Of a stretch of 64,000 nucleotides of DNA, positions 38,062-47,830 are shown piece after piece. Source of the DNA: Fusobacterium varium (GTDB taxonomy: Bacteria; Fusobacteriota; Fusobacteriia; Fusobacteriales; Fusobacteriaceae). Where the stretch lies: contig AP017968.1 of NCBI GenBank assembly GCA_002356455.1, forward strand, positions 1-64,000. Reading direction: 5' to 3'. The position numbers were made by a program, and so were the translations under genes. A model generated the notes under the pieces. That model was not told the DNA's origin. It saw only the letters and a program-made list of their open reading frames with translations, and made no database searches. Numbering within the stretch: the stretch's first letter is position 1; every line of letters begins with the position of its first letter.

Positions 38062-38095
38062 TTAAAAAATCAAAAATATCAAGGAGGTAATGAAC

Positions 38096-38416
38096 ATGGA
38101 TTTAGATTTAGAAGAAGTGGCAATGACAATAGTAGGTAACGCTGGTGAAGCAAGAAGTTTAGCTTATGAAGCATTAAGAGAAGCAAAAACTGGAAATTTT
38201 GATAAAGCAGAGGAACTTTTAAAAGAATCAAGAGAAAAATCTCTTGTAGCTCATGGGATGCAGACAGAACTTATATGTAATGAAGCAGATGGGAATGGAA
38301 TAGCTATGAATCTTTTGATGGTCCATGCTCAAGACCATCTTATGAACTCGATTCTGGCTAGAGAATTAGTTGAAGAACTAATAGATGTATATAGAAGAAT
38401 AGGAGTGGAAAAATAA
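38096..38416 (+). CDS. PTS EIIA component, lactose/cellobiose family
   Basis: This 106-residue helical phosphocarrier has the phosphorylated histidine in LLMVHAQDHLMNS (H77 by this start). The N-terminal EEVAMTIVGNAGEARSLAYEALREAK and the EADGNG loop are typical. ATG 38096 is preferred over 38090, because the latter lies only two bases from AAGGAGG. It is the first gene of a five-gene operon and its stop overlaps the next start. Confidence 0.93.
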   Translation: MDLDLEEVAMTIVGNAGEARSLAYEALREAKTGNFDKAEELLKESREKSLVAHGMQTELICNEADGNGIAMNLLMVHAQDHLMNSILARELVEELIDVYRRIGVEK

Positions 38417-39381
38417 TGAAGAAATGGGCTATGATTGCTACTTGGAGAATGGCTGTTGAAGGGGTTACTCTGGGAGCTGATATATTAAAAAATGGTGGAA
38501 AATGTCAGGATGCTGTAGAGAGAGCAATAATGGAAGTTGAGGACTATCCATTTTATAAGTCAGTAGGATATGGCGGACTTCCAAATGAAGTATGTGAAGT
38601 TGAACTGGATGCTGCTTTTATGGATGGAAGAACACTTTCTATTGGTGCAGTAGCTGGAATAAAAGATTATAAAAATCCTGTATGTATAGCGAGAAAACTT
38701 AGTGCAGACAGATTTAATATATTCCTTGTGGGAGAAGGAGCAGAAGCTTATGCTCACAAGAATGGTTTCATAAGACAGAATATGCTTACTGAAAGAGCAA
38801 AAAAGACTTGGGAATTAAGAATGAAAGAGATAACTGAAAAAAATCTTTCACCTTATGATGGACATGATACAGTATGCATGATAGGAATAGATTCAGAAAA
38901 AGATATGGCAGCAGCAACTTCTACAAGTGGTCTTTTTATGAAGAAAAGAGGAAGAGTAGGAGATTCACCTGTATCTGGTTCAGGATTCTATGTGGATAAT
39001 GAAGCTGGTGGAGCAGCAGCTACTGGACTTGGAGAGGATATAATGAAAGGCTGCCTTTCTTATGAAACAGTTCAAAGAATGAAGAGAGGAATGTCACCTT
39101 CAGAAGCAGCACAATCGGCAGTTGCAGACTTTTCTGAACAGTTGAAAAGAAGAAGAGGTCATGCAGGAGCTATATCAGTTATAGCAATGAATAATAAAGG
39201 AGAATGGGGAATTGGAACTAATGTAGAGTTTTCATTTGTTGCAGCTGATCCAGATAATGAACCTAAAGTATATCTTGCATATCCTGTAGAAGGAAGTAAT
39301 GAAGTAAAAATTGAAATAGCTTCAAAAGAATATATGGAAGCTTACAAAAAAAACATACAAAAACCATTAGAAGAAATATAA
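38416..39381 (+). CDS. N4-(beta-N-acetylglucosaminyl)-asparaginase-family Ntn hydrolase
   Basis: This 321-residue cytoplasmic amidase would self-cleave before T152 in DGHDTVCMIG, making the threonine the N-terminal nucleophile. Supporting blocks are GYGGLPNEVCEVELDAAFMDG, TSTSGLFMKKRGRVGDSPVSGSG and EAGGAAATGLGEDIMKG, all typical of aspartylglucosaminidase and isoaspartyl peptidase relatives. Location between PTS genes suggests it cleaves the imported compound, perhaps a (phospho)sugar-asparagine amide. The exact substrate is not known. Confidence 0.85.
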   Translation: MKKWAMIATWRMAVEGVTLGADILKNGGKCQDAVERAIMEVEDYPFYKSVGYGGLPNEVCEVELDAAFMDGRTLSIGAVAGIKDYKNPVCIARKLSADRFNIFLVGEGAEAYAHKNGFIRQNMLTERAKKTWELRMKEITEKNLSPYDGHDTVCMIGIDSEKDMAAATSTSGLFMKKRGRVGDSPVSGSGFYVDNEAGGAAATGLGEDIMKGCLSYETVQRMKRGMSPSEAAQSAVADFSEQLKRRRGHAGAISVIAMNNKGEWGIGTNVEFSFVAADPDNEPKVYLAYPVEGSNEVKIEIASKEYMEAYKKNIQKPLEEI

Positions 39382-39394
39382 AAAGGAGACGATG

Positions 39395-40705
39395 ATGAGC
39401 AAAGTTATAACTATACTAGAAGACAAACTTGTTCCTGTAGCTGCATGGATAGCACAGAACAAATATATCAATGGAATAAGAAGAGCATTTATAATGATGA
39501 TGCCTTTACTAATGATTGGATCTATATTTTTGATGATTTCAGCTTTTCCTTTACCAGCATACCAAAGAGGTATGATTAGCTTATTTGGCGAAGGATGGAA
39601 AGATGTTCTTGATATTCCTGTAAGTGCAACATTTTCACTTATAGCTTTATATGTAGCTTTTTTAGTAGCTCAGCAGCTTGCTAAACAGTTTGAGCTTGAC
39701 AGTATTGCAGTAGGGCTTCTATCTTTAGCTTCTTTCTTAATTCTTACTCCATTGGGACATTCTACTGAGCATGGAGCAGTCATCACATTTGACTGGCTTG
39801 GAAGTAAAGGAATGTTTGTGGCAATGGTTATTGGAGTAGTAACAGTAAAGATATTTCAATTCTTCGTTAATAGAAATATTCTTGTAAAAATGCCTGATGG
39901 TGTACCGCCAGAAGTTATAAAATCATTTGAAGCTTTAATACCTGGAACAGTTATTTTAGGAGCAGCCCTTCTATTAAGACTTCTTATGATGCAGACAGAG
40001 TATGGAACAATACATGATTTTGTATATAGAATGCTGGCTCTTCCATTAAAATCTCTTGGAACTTCATATATAGGTTCAATACTTACAGTTTTTGCTATAT
40101 CAATACTTTGGTCTGTGGGAATAAACAGTGGTTCTATGGTTAATGGATTTGTAAGACCTTTCTGGCTGGAAAATCAAGTAGAGAATATAGCTGCATTACA
40201 AGCAGGGCAGCCACTTCCTCATGTAATAACAGAGCAGTTTTTTGATATGGTATGGATGGGAGGAGCAGGAGTTACACTTTCTCTTCTTATAGCTATACTT
40301 ATCTTTGCAAAAAGTAAACATATAAGAAGTGTTGGAGCTATTGGGACTATTCCGGGAATATTTAATATAAATGAACCAATTCTTTTTGGACTTCCAATAA
40401 TTCTTAATCCAATTATGCTTATACCATTTAATCTGGTAGCTATGGTAATGGTAACTACACAATATATAACAATGAATCTAGGTATTGTATCAAAACCATT
40501 AGGAATAGCTTTCCCATGGCCTACACCGGCAATAATCAGTGGATTTATCACAGTAGGTGATATTTCAGGTGCACTTATTCAGATAGTAAATCTTATCATT
40601 GGAGCAATGATTTATCTTCCATTCCTTAGAATAATAGATAAGGCAAGTAAAAAAGAGGAAGATGAAATGGAAAGATTAGAAAAATTAGAAAATGAAGGAA
40701 AATAA
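39395..40705 (+). CDS. PTS EIIC permease, lactose/cellobiose family
   Basis: This 436-residue membrane permease moves and presents sugar for phosphorylation. It has about ten hydrophobic helices, the opening LVPVAAWIAQNKYINGIRRAFIMMMP, and the sugar-site-like GTIPGIFNINEPILFGLPIILNPIMLIPF (about 312-340), characteristic of the cellobiose EIIC family. ATG 39395 gives better spacing to AAAAGGAG than the ATG three bases earlier. It lies between the amidase and EIIB. Confidence 0.93.
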   Translation: MSKVITILEDKLVPVAAWIAQNKYINGIRRAFIMMMPLLMIGSIFLMISAFPLPAYQRGMISLFGEGWKDVLDIPVSATFSLIALYVAFLVAQQLAKQFELDSIAVGLLSLASFLILTPLGHSTEHGAVITFDWLGSKGMFVAMVIGVVTVKIFQFFVNRNILVKMPDGVPPEVIKSFEALIPGTVILGAALLLRLLMMQTEYGTIHDFVYRMLALPLKSLGTSYIGSILTVFAISILWSVGINSGSMVNGFVRPFWLENQVENIAALQAGQPLPHVITEQFFDMVWMGGAGVTLSLLIAILIFAKSKHIRSVGAIGTIPGIFNINEPILFGLPIILNPIMLIPFNLVAMVMVTTQYITMNLGIVSKPLGIAFPWPTPAIISGFITVGDISGALIQIVNLIIGAMIYLPFLRIIDKASKKEEDEMERLEKLENEGK

Positions 40706-40741
40706 TTAAAATTTAAAATAAGTAATCAGGAGGAAAAAACT

Positions 40742-41047
40742 ATGAAAAGAATATTATTATTATGTGATGCGGGAATGTCAACAAGTCTTATGGTTAAAAA
40801 AATGAAGGAAGCTGCTGTAAAAAAAGGAATAGAAACTGAAATAAATGCTTTAAGTATAGCAAAATTTCAAGAAAACCTTGATAACTATGATGTATTTTTA
40901 TTAGGACCACAAGTAAAATATAAAAAAGCTGAATTAGCAGCAGTAGCAGAAACTGTTGGAAAAAAAGTAGAAATCATCAATACTATGGATTATGGTATGA
41001 TGAAAGGAGATAAAGTTTTAGAACTCGCTCTTTCATTGATTGACTAA
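40742..41047 (+). CDS. PTS EIIB component, lactose/cellobiose family
   Basis: This 101-residue phosphotransfer domain starts MKRILLLCDAGMSTSLMV, where C8 is the phosphorylated cysteine. The end DYGMMKGDKVLELAL is typical of cellobiose EIIB. EIIA, EIIC and EIIB are all present, so the phosphotransferase is complete apart from the general EI and HPr. Confidence 0.94.
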   Translation: MKRILLLCDAGMSTSLMVKKMKEAAVKKGIETEINALSIAKFQENLDNYDVFLLGPQVKYKKAELAAVAETVGKKVEIINTMDYGMMKGDKVLELALSLID

Positions 41048-41067
41048 TTTCATTACAGGAGAAAATT

Positions 41068-42465
41068 ATGGATATAAAAAAATATATCGATATACATTTT
41101 GATGATGCTTTAAAAAGTATCATTGAAGTTATAAGAATAAAAACTGTAAAAGCAGAGAAAACAGGGGATGCTCCTTATGGAGCAGAGCTTAAAAGAGGTT
41201 TGAACAAAGTACTGGAAATAGCTCAAAGCCTTGGATTTAAAGTGAAAAATCTAGATAATTATATTGGATATGCTGAGTATGGAGCGGGAGAAGAATATAT
41301 AGCTGTTTTAGGACATATAGATGTAGTCCCTGAAGGGGATGAAGCCAGCTGGAGTGTACCGCCTTATGAAGGATGTATAGTAAATAATCAGCTTATAGCA
41401 AGAGGAGCTATTGACAATAAAGCTCCTATCATATCAGCTCTGTATTCTCTGAAAGCAGTAGTGGATACACATCCAGAATTCAATAAAAGAGTGAGGGTAA
41501 TATTTGGAACTAATGAAGAGAGCGGAGATGAAGATATCAAATATTATCTGGCAAGAGAAAAAGAGCCAAAATATGCTTTTACTCCAGATGGAAGATTTCC
41601 AGTAATATTTTCTGAAAAGGGGATATATACATTTTCATTTAGAAAAAAGATAAACTGGAAAAATTCAAAACTGATAGAGATAAAGGCAGGAACAAGATCA
41701 AATATAGTACCTGAAAAATGTATAGCTAAAGTGAGAAATATACCTAAAGAGAATATAAAGAAAGCTCTCAGTGAAATAAAAATATCAACTAAAGCAGGAT
41801 ATACAGTAAGTTATGAAGAAGATACAGCAGAAATAATCTGTACTGGAATATCAGCTCATGCAAGTTCACCTCATAAGGGAGTGAATGCACTTTTAGGAAT
41901 GTATAGATTCCTTGATCTGATCATTGGGAAAGAAGATGCAGCAAAAGGATTTATATCATTTATTTCAGGTTATATTGGTGAAAGTTCAGATGGAGAGAAA
42001 CTGGGTATAAAAACTGTCAATGAAGAAGTAGGAAATCTGACAATAAGCGCAGGTATAACAAATATTAAAGATGATGAGATATTTGTAAAATTTAATATAA
42101 GATATCCTGCTTCCATAGATGAAAAAACTCTTGATTTGAGATTGAATGCAGCAGGAGAAAAGGAAGATGTTATATTTTTTAAAGAGAATCATAATGCACC
42201 TCTTTATTTTGAAAAAAGTCATCCTTTAGTAAAAGAATTACAAGATATATATATAAGTGTAACAGGAAGAAAAGAGGACCCTGCTGCATTAGGTGGAGGA
42301 ACTTATGCTAAATTAATGCCGAATACAGTGGCTTTTGGTCCTAATTTTAAAGAATATAATGGTAAACCTCACAGTTTTGATGAGTGTATGGATCTTGATA
42401 TGTTGAAACAGGGAATGGAAATATATGCAAGGGCTATATTAAGACTTGGAGCATTAATCAAATAA
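41068..42465 (+). CDS. M20 dipeptidase, PepV-like
   Basis: This 465-residue zinc peptidase has metal ligands in VLGHIDVVPEGDEASW (about 81), ARGAIDNKAPIIS (about 111) and FGTNEESGDEDI (about 147), and the C-terminal GGGTYAKLMPN and FGPNFKEYNGKPHSFDE. PepV enzymes split dipeptides, including beta-alanyl types. As last gene of the PTS-amidase operon, it may finish breakdown of a peptide-linked substrate or of the released amino-acid part. Confidence 0.9.
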   Translation: MDIKKYIDIHFDDALKSIIEVIRIKTVKAEKTGDAPYGAELKRGLNKVLEIAQSLGFKVKNLDNYIGYAEYGAGEEYIAVLGHIDVVPEGDEASWSVPPYEGCIVNNQLIARGAIDNKAPIISALYSLKAVVDTHPEFNKRVRVIFGTNEESGDEDIKYYLAREKEPKYAFTPDGRFPVIFSEKGIYTFSFRKKINWKNSKLIEIKAGTRSNIVPEKCIAKVRNIPKENIKKALSEIKISTKAGYTVSYEEDTAEIICTGISAHASSPHKGVNALLGMYRFLDLIIGKEDAAKGFISFISGYIGESSDGEKLGIKTVNEEVGNLTISAGITNIKDDEIFVKFNIRYPASIDEKTLDLRLNAAGEKEDVIFFKENHNAPLYFEKSHPLVKELQDIYISVTGRKEDPAALGGGTYAKLMPNTVAFGPNFKEYNGKPHSFDECMDLDMLKQGMEIYARAILRLGALIK

Positions 42466-42537: not shown

Positions 42538-43206
42538 TTATAAATATAGTCTACTTTTAATAAGGTTTATATCTTCTTCTATTTTTTTTAATTTTATTTT
42601 ACTTACATATAATATTGAAAAATCTCTAAAAATTATGGTTTCCTCTTTATAGTCTATATATCTGATTAAATCTATATTTACTATAGTTCCTCTTTCAATT
42701 TTATAAAAATTGTCTATTGTTTCTAATTTTTCTTCAATAATAGAAAAGTTTTCCTTTAAAGTAAAGACTTCCTTATTTGTCAGATGAAATTGAACTCTAC
42801 GTGTTGTTCGGCAATAACTGATATATGTTACTTCTGAAAAATCAATGATTCCTTTTTTCTGATTATCATTCAGGAAGAATTGAGTATATTTTTGTTTGGA
42901 ATGAATCAATTTTTCAATAGATTTTTCAATTTCATATATCTCATGTCTTAAAATACAATCTGCAACATAATTTGATAAAAACAAAGTTCTCATTTCCCTG
43001 ATATTATTTTTTCCTAAAACGACTATAACAGGAATTCCTCTCTTAAAATTTGCTTTTATTTTATCTGTAACATTTTCTGAATCAATATCTATTATAAACA
43101 TTTCAAAACTATTATTCTCACGTTTAGTATTTATAAATTCATAATCCAACATTTCTTTTAAAAGAATAAGAAGTTTGTCATCTATATCCACTCCTATTTT
43201 AATCAT
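42538..43206 (-). CDS. LytTR-family regulator with degenerate receiver
   Basis: The C-terminal 95 residues are a LytTR DNA-binding domain: VTYISYCRTTRRVQFHLTNKEVFTLKENFSIIEEKL, then FYKIERGTIVNIDLIRYID. The N-terminal 110 residues resemble a receiver fold (MIKIGVDIDDKLL, EMFIIDID, PVIVVLGK) but lack the usual acidic pair and clear lysine context, so normal phosphorylation is doubtful. ATG 43206 overlaps the 3' end of the membrane-sensor gene by eight bases, so the two proteins are probably made together. Confidence 0.75.
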   Translation of the reverse strand: MIKIGVDIDDKLLILLKEMLDYEFINTKRENNSFEMFIIDIDSENVTDKIKANFKRGIPVIVVLGKNNIREMRTLFLSNYVADCILRHEIYEIEKSIEKLIHSKQKYTQFFLNDNQKKGIIDFSEVTYISYCRTTRRVQFHLTNKEVFTLKENFSIIEEKLETIDNFYKIERGTIVNIDLIRYIDYKEETIIFRDFSILYVSKIKLKKIEEDINLIKSRLYL

Positions 43207-44758
43207 CAAAACTCAACTCCTTATAAATGGAATTAAGCCTTATATTATTGGCTATACCAGCGACTTTTTCGGATATTCCTGCCAGATACTTTATATTTTC
43301 AATATCCATTTCATATTCATATTCTTCAATAAATATTGCACCAACATAGGGATTCCCATTAAAAGCCAATCTTATTCCAGTTGAATAAATTTCTTTCTTT
43401 ATATTTTCTTTTTCTATAAATAGGTTATTTTCATAAAAATTTTTATCAATCAAATATTCAGAAATTTCTTTTTCATCAATAAAGATTTTAACCAGAACTG
43501 ATCTGACTTGCAGATTTTTTTTAAGTTCTTTTTCAAGTTCTTTTTCAAATTCTCTTCTATTCTGTACCAAACATAATTTTGTATAGGACTTTTCAAGTAC
43601 TTCATTTTTTACAAGAAGTATTTTTTCAAATGTCATTGTATAAAAATCCAGAATAAATATAGTTATCAAAATAATAGCAGGCTCTAATAGAGTTTTAAAA
43701 TAAAATAAAGTCATATAAGCAATTGTAAAACCCAAAAGATATCGAACAACTCTGCTTATATTTTTTGTGTATATTTTTAAACTTACAAATACCAATCCCC
43801 AGTATATACACATATATTCTATTAATTTAATAAAAGAATAGAGATTAAGAAATTTAGGAAAAGCAATGTAAAAAAGTTCCATAAATAAATATAAGAATAT
43901 TACTGAAAAGTAATAAAATTTTTGTGGTGAAACTGTAAATCTTTTATTTGTTAATAGATTAAAGATAATAATAAATAAAATAATTCTTCTTAAATTGATA
44001 ATCTGATATGTCTTTCTTAAAAAAGTTAAAAAAGCTTCATGAGTGCTCAATATATAAGTATAAATTTGAGGAGATAATAAGTTGATTGCTATAAGTGCAT
44101 AATAAATAAAAGAAAGTGCAGACAATACATAGATAAAGTATCTTATTTTCTTATGCTTTCTATTCATGCGGTTATTTAAAATATAAAAGATTATTAAAAA
44201 ACCTAATGTTGTGGATATGAAAAATTCCAGAAACTTTATAAAATCTACTTGAAAATTTCCTCTGAAGCTAAGAATCATTTTTAGAATTAATATAAAAAAG
44301 GATAAATTGAGTATTTTATCTTTTTTTATTTCTTTTTTTATCTTAGTATAAATAAAAATATTTAAAATTATAAGGGTTAAAGTTATTATATTTAATGCTA
44401 TTTCCTGTTTTTTAGAGAAAATATCTCCTTGCAGAGGAATTATTATTTTTTTCCAATTATCATCTTTTCTAAAAGGTACATACTTTTCCTGTTCATCATA
44501 GCTTATTTTTAATGTGTAATCTCCATTAGGGACATTGAAAAAGATTTTTCCATTAAGGAAATTCCTCATTTCAAAATTTGTACTTTTTCCATCAGAAAAA
44601 AGAATAGAGTATTCGCCTATATTTCTATCTAAAACTTCAATATATTTTATTTTAGGCACTACATATATAAAATCCTTTTCATTGTGAGCTATAAATTTTA
44701 AAAATGTACCTAAAGAAACAACTGAAATAATTATAAATATCAATATTTTTTTATACAT
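43199..44758 (-). CDS. Membrane sensor-like protein without a kinase domain
   Basis: I do not recognise a specific family. The 519 residues start with one helix (1-20), then an outside segment of about 90 residues. About eight hydrophobic helices follow (around 118-375), then a charged coiled coil (about 385-425) and a C-terminal GAF-like domain (KIFIDEKEISEYLI, GIRLAFNGNPYVGAIFIEE). The overall plan resembles 7TM signalling receptors (7TMR-DISM type), but there is no histidine-kinase, GGDEF or phosphatase output. Coupling to the LytTR gene suggests it controls that regulator directly. Confidence 0.6.
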   Translation of the reverse strand: MYKKILIFIIISVVSLGTFLKFIAHNEKDFIYVVPKIKYIEVLDRNIGEYSILFSDGKSTNFEMRNFLNGKIFFNVPNGDYTLKISYDEQEKYVPFRKDDNWKKIIIPLQGDIFSKKQEIALNIITLTLIILNIFIYTKIKKEIKKDKILNLSFFILILKMILSFRGNFQVDFIKFLEFFISTTLGFLIIFYILNNRMNRKHKKIRYFIYVLSALSFIYYALIAINLLSPQIYTYILSTHEAFLTFLRKTYQIINLRRIILFIIIFNLLTNKRFTVSPQKFYYFSVIFLYLFMELFYIAFPKFLNLYSFIKLIEYMCIYWGLVFVSLKIYTKNISRVVRYLLGFTIAYMTLFYFKTLLEPAIILITIFILDFYTMTFEKILLVKNEVLEKSYTKLCLVQNRREFEKELEKELKKNLQVRSVLVKIFIDEKEISEYLIDKNFYENNLFIEKENIKKEIYSTGIRLAFNGNPYVGAIFIEEYEYEMDIENIKYLAGISEKVAGIANNIRLNSIYKELSFDD

Positions 44759-45167
44759 ATTATTCTCCTTTTATATAGAGTAATCAATAATCTCAATTAG
44801 TTATATCAACTTATTTAAAATAAGTAAAGTTTTTTCATAAATATTAATTTTATAATCTTGAAAAGTATTTAATAATTGTAATTTAAAGGCGAATATGAAA
44901 TTTTTAAATAAACTTATATTTTTGACATAGTATATTTTTGCGTAGGAAAATAATGAGTTTGTGTATTGAAAGAAAAATATGCTTAATATTGAGGTATAAT
45001 TCAAAAAAGATTTAAAAAATGTCTGACTGTTGATTTTAAGAAGAACTTTTATTAAATGTATATTTTTTAGTATTTATTCCCAAATATCATTTTTAAAGAA
45101 AATAATATTATTTTGGAAATCACATATAAAAATAAAATATTAAATTAATCTTTAAGGAGGAAAAAAG
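44759..45167. other. Divergent AT-rich control region
   Basis: This 409-base gap separates the minus-strand sensor from the outer-membrane gene. It contains isolated promoter-like words (a TTGACA near 44934 and a TATAAT near 44994) but no well-spaced pair I can defend. No gene or RNA was recognised. Confidence 0.4.
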
Positions 45168-45842
45168 ATGAAAATCAGTAAGACTTTATTAGGGTTGGCA
45201 GGAATTATATTAATAAACAATCAGGCTTTTGCAGAAAAAGATACTAATGTATATTTAAGATTAGGAGGAAGTGTATATGAAAAATATAAGACTTATAATA
45301 GTAAAGGATATCAGATAGGAGATAAAAATGCTGAAGCTGCTGTAGTAAGTTTCACAGTAGAAGCAACAAGAGAAATTACAGAAGAATTTGAAGCAGGAAT
45401 AGGAATAGGAGTATAATATTTTGATAAATCACTGACAGATACAAAACGTTATTCTGAAAATAAAGTATCCGTAGAACAGCGAATGCCAGATTATAAATCA
45501 GTACCAGTTTACTTAGTTACAAAATATAATTTTGATAGAATTGGAAACTGGAGACCATATTTAAAATGGAATATTGGATATTCCTTCAATAAATTTAAAG
45601 ATGATTTCAAGGGAAAAATAACAGATATCAATACAGGGAAAAAAATGGACTATTCACATAAAGTAAAAGCAGATAATGGAGTTTATTTAGGAATGGGAGG
45701 AGGAATAGAATATAAAAATTTCCTAATAGATTTAATGTATGAAATAAACAGATTTAAGATAAAGATAGATGATGAATCAGATAAAAGAGATTATGATTCA
45801 CAAAGAGTAACATTATCAGTGGGTTATAGATTTAATTTCTAA
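45168..45842 (+). pseudogene. Outer-membrane beta-barrel protein broken by one in-frame stop
   Basis: The frame starts with a signal peptide (MKISKTLLGLAGIILINNQAFA) and continues with barrel strands. TAA at 45414-45416 interrupts it after GAGIGIGV, and then the same frame runs on (YFDKSLTDTKRYSENKV) to a typical barrel end with a terminal aromatic, RVTLSVGYRFNF. The full chain would be 224 residues, like small OmpW/OmpX/opacity-type barrels. Codon use after the stop is normal, so the nonsense change is recent, a strain-specific defect, or a sequencing error. Ribosome site and start are intact. Confidence 0.8.
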
Positions 45843-45855
45843 ATTTTATAAATAG

Positions 45856-46821
45856 ATGGAGGAAAAATTGCAGTTTAATTCTACTATGCAAATATTACAA
45901 TTATATTTTAAAGTTATAAAAAAAGGAAAAGGGAAAGGTCAGATAAATACATTAAAAAAGCAGATAAAATTTATTTTTAGGACAATAGTTTATTTACCTT
46001 TCTCTTTACAGGTAGGAGAGTTCATATTAAAACACGAAAAATTGAAAAAAAGTATTTTTAATTATCCAGTGCTTATCAGTAAAGTACACCGTCCTTATCT
46101 AATCAAGGATTTAAAAACAAATGAAAAAGTAAAGAGTATTATAGAAAGTTATAGTTTTGTAGATATTTTTTTTCCTGCTGAATTGAGTGATGAGTTATAT
46201 AGAAAAGGAAAAATTTTATTAAGCAGTTTTCCTGTCAAAGATGGATCTTTTTATAAAATTTATCTTTGTATATATACTAATTTTGATAAAGAGGGAGAAA
46301 TTAATCTAAAATTAACCAATTCATGTGAAAATATAATAGGAACCCTGACTTTTGGAATTATAAATCAGAAGGATAAAAAAACAATACTGATTGGGGGGTT
46401 ACAAGGAGCTTCGAAAGACTTAAATGAAGAATATATAAAAAACTGTACTAAGAATATGTATGGTTTATTTCCTAAGAAACTTTTATTTGAAGCTCTTTGT
46501 TTTTTAGAAAAAGCAACAAAAACTAATTTTGTAAAAGCAGCAACAGGTAATTTTACACATATATATACATCAGAAAGATATACTTCAAGAAGGACAATTC
46601 ACTCTGATTATGACTCATTTTGGAAATCTTTAAATGCTTTTCAATTAGAAAATAAATTATGGTACTTTCCTAAATCCATAAAAAGAAAATCTTTAGAGGA
46701 GGTACCAAGCAAGAAAAGAAGCCAATACCAAAAAAGATACAATCTTCTTGATAACATTGAAGAAGATATTTTAAATAAATTTAAAGGAGAAAACCATGAA
46801 AATATTAGTAGTACGTTTTAA
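45856..46821 (+). CDS. VirK/YbjX-family protein (DUF535)
   Basis: The 321-residue protein shows the DUF535 pattern in order: KVHRPYLIKDLKTNEKVKSIIESY (about 76), LSSFPVKDGSFYKIYLCIYTNFDKEGEINLKL, ILIGGLQGASKD (about 175), KNMYGLFPKKLLFEAL (about 198) and IHSDYDSFWKSL (about 250). Proteobacterial members (VirK, YbjX) affect outer-membrane or virulence traits, with no known enzymatic activity. ATG 45856 is one choice, but TTG 45868 is better placed behind TGGAGG. It overlaps the GT9 gene by 26 bases. Confidence 0.8.
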   Translation: MEEKLQFNSTMQILQLYFKVIKKGKGKGQINTLKKQIKFIFRTIVYLPFSLQVGEFILKHEKLKKSIFNYPVLISKVHRPYLIKDLKTNEKVKSIIESYSFVDIFFPAELSDELYRKGKILLSSFPVKDGSFYKIYLCIYTNFDKEGEINLKLTNSCENIIGTLTFGIINQKDKKTILIGGLQGASKDLNEEYIKNCTKNMYGLFPKKLLFEALCFLEKATKTNFVKAATGNFTHIYTSERYTSRRTIHSDYDSFWKSLNAFQLENKLWYFPKSIKRKSLEEVPSKKRSQYQKRYNLLDNIEEDILNKFKGENHENISSTF

Positions 46822-47830
46822 ACAAATAGGAGATGCTGTTTTAAGCTCAGCTATATGCAATACTCTTAAAAAAAGTTTCCCTGAATCTGAAATTGATTAT
46901 GTAGTATATGAGCATATTGCTCCTTTATTTAAAAACCATCCATATATTGACAATATTATATCATTAACTAAAGAAGAACAGAAGAACCCTCTTAAGTATA
47001 TAGCTAAAGTATGGAAAGTAACAAGAAAAAAATATGATATAGTAATAGATATAATGTCTACTCCCAAAAGTGAAATGTTTACTTTATTTTCTTTGGGAAG
47101 CAAATATAGAATAGGAAGAAAGAAAAAATATAGAGGATTTACATATACTCATAAGATTTCTGAACCTGCTGATTCAAAGGATAAAGTTGATAAGTTTTTA
47201 AAAATGCTGGCTCCATTGGAAGAAAAATATAAAATACTGTATGACAACAGTTATATCACTCATATAAATGAAAAAGAAAAAGAAAATATGAAAAGAAAAA
47301 TGAAAGAAGCAGGAATAGATTTTTCAAAGCCTGTATTTATATGTGCTGTAAATTCAAGGCGTCCAGAGAAAATTTATCCACTCAATAAAATGGAATGTGT
47401 TATCAAAAAAGTAATAGAAGAAATGAATCCACAGATTATACTATTTTATTCTCCAGCAGAAAAAGAATTTGTTAAAAATTTTCATTCTGGATTAAATAAC
47501 AGTAAAAATATTTTTTCAAATATAGAAACAACTTCAATAAGAGAGTTGGCAGCACTTATTTCAAATTGTGATATGTTTTTTGGAAATGAGGGAGGACCAA
47601 GGCATATAGCTCAAAGTTTAGATATTCCAAGCTTTGCTATTTTCAGTCCTAAGAGCAGAAAAAAAGAGTGGCTGGCTAACCCAAGTAAAAAACATCAAGG
47701 TGTAGAACCCAGAGATATTTATCCTGAGTGCAGTTCTCTCAGTTATAAAGATTGTTATTCATTAATTCAGCCAGACTATGTTGTTGATAAAATTAAAGAA
47801 CTATATTTACAATACTGTGGAGATATATAA
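46796..47830 (+). CDS. Glycosyltransferase family 9 (heptosyltransferase-like)
   Basis: This 344-residue lipopolysaccharide-type enzyme starts MKILVVRFKQIGDAVLSSAICNTLKKSFP, the GT9 opening with the RxxxxGDxxL block. It has the donor-site region SNCDMFFGNEGGPRHIAQSLDIPSFAIFSP (about 257-286), with the family's G-GPxH motif. It probably adds heptose or a related sugar to the lipid A-core. The AAAGGAG site lies inside the VirK-like gene, so the pair is co-expressed. Confidence 0.9.
   Translation: MKILVVRFKQIGDAVLSSAICNTLKKSFPESEIDYVVYEHIAPLFKNHPYIDNIISLTKEEQKNPLKYIAKVWKVTRKKYDIVIDIMSTPKSEMFTLFSLGSKYRIGRKKKYRGFTYTHKISEPADSKDKVDKFLKMLAPLEEKYKILYDNSYITHINEKEKENMKRKMKEAGIDFSKPVFICAVNSRRPEKIYPLNKMECVIKKVIEEMNPQIILFYSPAEKEFVKNFHSGLNNSKNIFSNIETTSIRELAALISNCDMFFGNEGGPRHIAQSLDIPSFAIFSPKSRKKEWLANPSKKHQGVEPRDIYPECSSLSYKDCYSLIQPDYVVDKIKELYLQYCGDI

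Follow-up and report, generated by a model that had tools for sequence, protein, structure and literature searches.

The closest described relatives of the locus analysed here are the LytTR Regulatory Systems. According to Zou et al. 2018 (PMC6193735), the gene for a regulator without receiver precedes that for a membrane inhibitor in these systems, and a repeat stands ahead of the promoter that drives the two; DUF3021 or DUF2154 is given for four of the five membrane proteins of S. mutans. The same paper describes LRS-like operons of Bacteroides, in which the membrane gene lies upstream of the LytTR gene, the membrane protein is NfeD-like with DUF2154, and the regulator carries transmembrane segments. 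In enterobacteria, VirK/YbjX genes are controlled by PhoPQ and linked to outer-membrane integrity, according to two reports (PMC12562796, PMC13109725).

The gene pair studied here lies in a 64,000-nucleotide stretch of the Fusobacterium varium genome (AP017968.1, positions 1 to 64,000), hereafter called the window. In common with HdrRM and BrsRM, it has a single operon that encodes both a LytTR regulator and a membrane protein without a kinase, and it also shares with the LytTR Regulatory Systems direct repeats with a 12-bp spacer near the -35 region (PMC6193735). By the same source, it differs in having the membrane gene rather than the regulator gene first, a receiver fold with an Asp where those regulators have no receiver or phospho-Asp, a beta domain and a GAF domain in place of small DUF3021/DUF2154 types, and a repeat at a divergent target promoter instead of the pair's own promoter, although one branch described below (group B) resembles the known systems in this last respect. 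Because several defining features fail, we did not file the pair as a member of that class; by analogy, it appears to work like one, as a variant that departs from it in the order of the genes, the receiver fold and the family of the membrane protein. With the Bacteroides operons it shares gene order but neither the type of membrane protein nor the transmembrane segments of the regulator.

The two-component systems LytS/LytT and ComD/ComE also have a regulator made of receiver and LytTR domain and a multi-helix sensor with GAF. Unlike them, the present pair has no kinase partner and a degenerate receiver active site, which keeps the Asp and a basic residue, loses the Thr and retains the acidic pair in part. 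PhoPQ, as covered in the two reports on VirK/YbjX, resembles the pair as an envelope-sensing system placed over a DUF535/VirK-family gene, but is a true two-component system with an unrelated type of regulator. Our literature search found no title or abstract opening that describes the pair, or that places Fusobacterium surface genes under a LytTR regulator.

Results

A membrane protein without a kinase domain overlaps a LytTR regulator

The initial annotation had proposed two overlapping genes, a membrane receptor without a kinase and a LytTR regulator, that signal to each other by direct contact instead of phosphorylation. Both reading frames were found where it had placed them, on the minus strand and with an overlap of 11 bp (Table 1), and conservation across 98 genomes together with Pfam searches bore out the pairing. 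The stretch 38090-42465, oriented toward the pair, holds PTS genes as well as genes for a glycosylasparaginase-like protein and an M20 peptidase.

Table 1. Coordinates of the gene pair, its domains and the predicted control region and targets within the window.
Feature	Position	Strand	Description	Evidence
Membrane sensor gene, first of pair	43199..44758	-	519 aa, kinase domain absent	ORF list, Pfam, AlphaFold2, homologues
Extracytoplasmic beta domain	44435..44671	-	residues 30-108; weak Ig/CarboxypepD-like similarities	AlphaFold2
Transmembrane helices, about nine	43610..44413	-	residues 116-383	AlphaFold2; hydropathy, 9 peaks in all
Cytoplasmic GAF domain	43211..43606	-	residues 385-516, C-terminal end of protein	VIA-align
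LytTR regulator gene with degenerate receiver	42538..43209	-	223 aa	ORF list, Pfam, AlphaFold2, Foldseek
Degenerate receiver domain	42892..43206	-	residues 1-105; Asp40 kept, Thr position = Leu64, Lys position = Arg87, no helix alpha2
LytTR DNA-binding domain	42574..42849	-		Pfam PF04397 E 4.8e-9; AgrA/ComE LytTR folds
Likely promoter of pair	44800..44828	-	TTTACT-17-TATAAC; kept in two relatives	alignment, by eye
Candidate LytTR half-site 1	44936..44944	+	TTTTGCGTA	divergent intergenic alignment, motif search
Candidate LytTR half-site 2	44957..44965	+	GTTTGTGTA; 21 bp after half-site 1
-10 element of divergent target promoter	44995..45000	+	TATAAT; 29 bp past repeat; no good -35
Probable target gene 1, small outer-membrane beta-barrel	45168..45842	+	one in-frame stop, 82 + 119 aa
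Probable target gene 2, DUF535 (VirK/YbjX family)	45856..46821	+	321 aa	Pfam E 1.8e-74
Probable target gene 3, GT9 glycosyltransferase (heptosyltransferase family)	46796..47830	+	344 aa	Pfam E 2e-21

The AlphaFold2 model of the sensor, built from a six-row alignment of the window and related loci and with a mean pLDDT of only 73, consists of an N-terminal helix, a seven-stranded beta domain, about nine further long helices and the GAF domain. It agrees with the extracytoplasmic domain and GAF-like tail that had been suggested for this protein, but not with the suggested number of about eight helices. The best VIA-align match of the tail was the GAF domain of PDE6 (Z 12.8, rmsd 3.6, 135 aligned), with the GAF domain of E. 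coli KdpD at Z 12.3; when the whole sensor model was used, 50 of 50 among the matches listed overlapped the tail, and these gave no named fold for the helices or the beta domain. The sensor stops at the GAF domain; by eye, the LytS kinase of the same genome has its kinase module beyond the corresponding point.

Pfam returned zero matches for the 519-aa sensor and detected a kinase domain in none of the 44 membrane partners identified across the phylum (see below), as expected from the earlier description of the sensor as kinase-less. A kinase hidden inside the membrane protein was rejected on this result. The 44 members were also without Pfam matches to 7TMR-DISM domains, DUF3021 or DUF2154; the overall layout of the sensor is similar to that of 7TMR-DISM receptors. 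Weak Pfam matches to EMC7, CarboxypepD and HGTP_anticodon, each in a single member, were set aside. An NCBIfam search gave nothing useful, and a scan for close relatives with a single membrane protein as query found nothing.

The receiver is degenerate but retains its aspartate

The LytTR domain assigned to the regulator by the initial annotation was confirmed by Pfam (Table 1), and the best Foldseek match of the regulator was full-length ComE (E 7.7e-11). Its AlphaFold2 model was likewise based on six rows from the window and related loci (mean pLDDT 81). The N-terminus adopts a receiver fold, with the receiver of PmrA as its best VIA-align match (Z 14.3, rmsd 2.2, 104 aligned), and is modelled without helix alpha2. 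Pfam Response_reg was undetected in all 49 regulator relatives.

We assessed the active site at the positions of the phosphorylation-site Asp, the Thr/Ser, the Lys and the acidic pair. Among the 44 regulators that have a membrane partner, Asp40 is present in 40 (the others have Glu in three cases and Pro in one), position 87 is always basic (Arg in 32, Lys in 12) and position 9 is Asp or Glu in 35, so that the acidic pair is partial; Thr or Ser at position 64 is found in eight and has been lost in 36. The degeneracy claimed for this receiver therefore holds for the lost Thr and the undetected Response_reg, but not for Asp40 and the basic residue. From these residues, the site appears degenerate, yet not clearly dead.

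The retained residues (40 of 44 for Asp40, 44 of 44 for the basic position) would be superfluous in a pure contact domain. Together with the acidic residue at position 9, they favour an orphan response regulator whose Asp40 receives its phosphate from an unlinked kinase or acetyl phosphate, a step that the membrane protein only modulates. The genome has 22 HATPase_c matches; compared by eye with the receiver matches, 17 lie within about 3 kb of one and five do not, one of these five lying in an 802-aa frame. Phosphorylation by a small phosphodonor or a kinase encoded elsewhere is therefore possible. A genome search with PF14501 gave 11 matches, five of them over the cut-off, which overlapped the HATPase_c places. 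Against this explanation, the Thr/Ser is missing from most paired regulators, helix alpha2 is absent and Response_reg goes undetected throughout. In addition, the genome has only two LytS-type kinases, each beside its own receiver, and Pfam found no histidine kinase adjoining the window pair. We thus regard an orphan response regulator as unlikely. Signalling by contact rather than phosphorylation seems likely from the sequences, and only likely because the receiver, though degenerate, has kept its Asp.

The pair is conserved together in Fusobacteriota

Profile searches of 98 Fusobacteriota genomes matched the regulator in 34 and the sensor in 26, and 42 of the 43 sensor places adjoined a regulator, the exception being a fragment at a contig start. 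The pair is thus conserved together, the point on which the initial annotation had proposed to check its reading. The membrane gene lies upstream of the regulator gene in 44 of 44 partner-bearing loci, and in 43 of these the gap between the two is -74 to +15 bp. The partners match the sensor profile in 42 of 44 cases (L103 and L108 do not), 13 of the 42 having helped to build that profile. The 44 include fragments at contig ends (L037, L078, L081 and L089) and two broken copies (L027 and L036); regulator fragments of less than 150 aa (L100 and L102) were dropped before pairs were counted, and the count of membrane partners leaves aside the flavodoxin-like genes beside the regulators of L083 and L084. 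Named relatives of the window genome are Fusobacterium mortiferum and Cetobacterium.

The window genome (4.12 Mb) contains a second pair (L023), with 55% and 62% identity to the window pair, and a third, more distant one. Since the pair is both duplicated within a genome and conserved across the phylum, its association is more than chance. The second pair (L023, 87-5523) lies downstream of a large autotransporter gene, a gene for a small exported FadA/OmpH-like protein and an HU-like gene. The third (L024, 3591-5830; also L104-L107) is again kinase-less with a GAF-like tail, precedes genes for a PLP lyase, an MFS transporter and an ABC transporter, and retains the acidic pair, Asp and Ser in its receiver.

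Five regulator loci lack a membrane partner. In L083, L084 and L093, receiver-LytTR regulators lie beside exbB/exbD/tonB-like, flavodoxin-like or TonB-receptor-like genes; position 40 is Lys and Ser in L083 and L084 and Asp in L093. Because L083 and L084 have a receiver but no partner, the receiver does not always depend on one. A SnoaL-like domain was detected by Pfam in two members, by sequence the LytTR regulators of L092 (4569-5363) and L094 (4820-5422), which have it in place of the receiver and adjoin fimbrial chaperone/usher-like genes. In two further loci, L036 (5214-6766) and L027 (6478-8036), the sensor gene is broken while the regulator and the repeat are kept, making them natural sensor knock-outs; the L027 regulator is 14 aa shorter.

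Names of neighbouring genes come from visual inspection of their sequences unless a Pfam match is given. Loci of the window type adjoin barrel/DUF535/GT9 genes or face an autotransporter-like gene of about 1000 aa with a lipoprotein-like start. Group B, the Cetobacterium branch (eight loci: L085-L091 and L038), has 2-oxoacid oxidoreductase-like genes on one side and an amino-acid ABC transporter on the other, and group C lies upstream of PLP lyase and MFS transporter genes.

A direct repeat with 21-bp spacing marks the divergent promoter

The divergent promoter of the barrel/DUF535(VirK)/GT9 genes contains a candidate direct repeat of LytTR type, TTTTGCGTA-12 bp-GTTTGTGTA. In the aligned divergent intergenic regions, the paired 9-mers 21 bp apart are the same in the window and L027, and in L026 they read TTTTGTGCG/GTTTGTGTG, the last base being altered in both half-sites relative to the window. 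TATAAT follows 28-29 bp later in all three. The search of the alignment and with the motif found no such repeat upstream of the window pair's own promoter, which was rejected as its carrier.

The composite TTNRNGTA-N13-TTNRNGTA-N29-TATAAT has one perfect match in the 4.12-Mb genome, at 44937-45000, and no one-mismatch copies; at up to two mismatches it has ten matches, against 17 for a reversed control. Autotransporter loci have the same layout at their divergent promoter, with half-sites that vary by locus and a constant 21-bp spacing. In 42 loci (430 kb) outside those used to derive the motif, 11 matches with up to two mismatches were found at lag 21, where about 2.1 were expected, as against zero to four at each of twelve other lags. 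These 11 precede lipoprotein, hydrolase-like, DUF535, small exported-protein, TonB-receptor-like and fimbrial genes; several of the loci are close relatives, and the independent events are therefore fewer. Scores of single loci at lag 21 are mostly near those of shuffled sequence, so that the weight lies in the recurrence across loci. A strong version with lag 22 precedes the lipoprotein gene in L076, L077 and L079. Similar repeats stand before the fimbrial genes in L092 and before the receptor-like gene in L084.

In group B, three TGT half-sites at exact 21-bp steps precede the sensor gene in 7/7 loci examined, compared with 0/7 for each of the remaining lags between 12 and 35 and 0.01 expected; an eighth locus is without that stretch. 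Since these half-sites stand before the pair's own sensor gene, the group B pair probably controls itself. Nothing convincing was found in the paralogous pair (L023, L028 and L029), in group C or in L102, a DUF535-divergent locus without the 21-bp layout.

These differences would fit a repeat that serves another regulator while the pair controls something else, given that other sites, or none that could be detected, are seen in groups B and C and in the paralogous pair. Every perfect motif match among the loci examined, however, adjoins such a pair, and all further LytTR regulators encoded in the genome sit at three distant loci. We consider this explanation very improbable.

The pair's own neighbours were named as targets worth examining in the initial annotation, and the single perfect match in the genome and the conservation of the site in related species support them as likely ones. 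The barrel gene is interrupted in the window, but L026 has a 225-aa ORF that belongs to its cluster; the promoter of L027 lies directly before DUF535. Across the 98 genomes, DUF535 lies within 6 kb of a regulator in 9 of 22 places, in five genera, compared with 0.107 expected. Judging from the sequence, it is most likely that the pair activates the adjacent barrel/DUF535/GT9 outer-membrane genes. What this adds to the earlier description is a specific, probable target promoter.

Discussion

We consider it rather probable that the pair is a dedicated envelope-sensing switch, signalled by contact, that activates the barrel/DUF535/GT9 genes through the repeat. The membrane protein would sense a stimulus through its extracytoplasmic beta domain and helices and relay its state to its own cytoplasmic GAF domain. 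The GAF domain may then touch the degenerate receiver of the co-translated regulator, freeing or reshaping it without phosphotransfer. With a good -10 element and a poor -35, the divergent promoter has the conserved 21-bp-spaced repeat just upstream, which the regulator would bind and so activate the operon. Besides the conserved Asp40 and basic residue, the partner-less receivers of L083 and L084, the undetected motif in L023 and group C and the missing 21-bp layout in L102 speak against such a switch.

As a special case of the contact switch, the membrane protein may be a pure inhibitor, as in the LytTR Regulatory Systems, which holds the regulator inactive at the membrane, so that loss of the sensor would turn the target on. 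The two-part logic is shared with HdrRM and BrsRM, as these are described in PMC6193735, and in L036 the regulator, the repeat and the autotransporter ORF remain beside a broken membrane gene. On the other hand, gene order, receiver fold and membrane family are unlike those of HdrRM and BrsRM, and the broken sensor of one genome says nothing on the sign of control. Pure inhibition is possible, but we hold it to be doubtful.

Anatomically, the pair is a two-component system minus its kinase module, and we infer descent from one. More broadly, and with somewhat less than even confidence, we suggest that the Fusobacteriota pairs are phylum-wide two-component descendants in which the kinase was lost at the GAF boundary and the receiver became a contact domain read by the GAF domain. 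A 21-bp-spaced repeat of its own would connect each pair to a single surface or transport operon, in the case of the window pair a VirK-family outer-membrane operon with one site in the genome. The pair offers a link from phosphorelay systems to LytTR systems of the contact type, which have been little studied, and with a defined promoter the mechanism is directly testable. For Fusobacteriota, it would supply a predicted circuit that controls VirK-family, autotransporter and outer-membrane genes.
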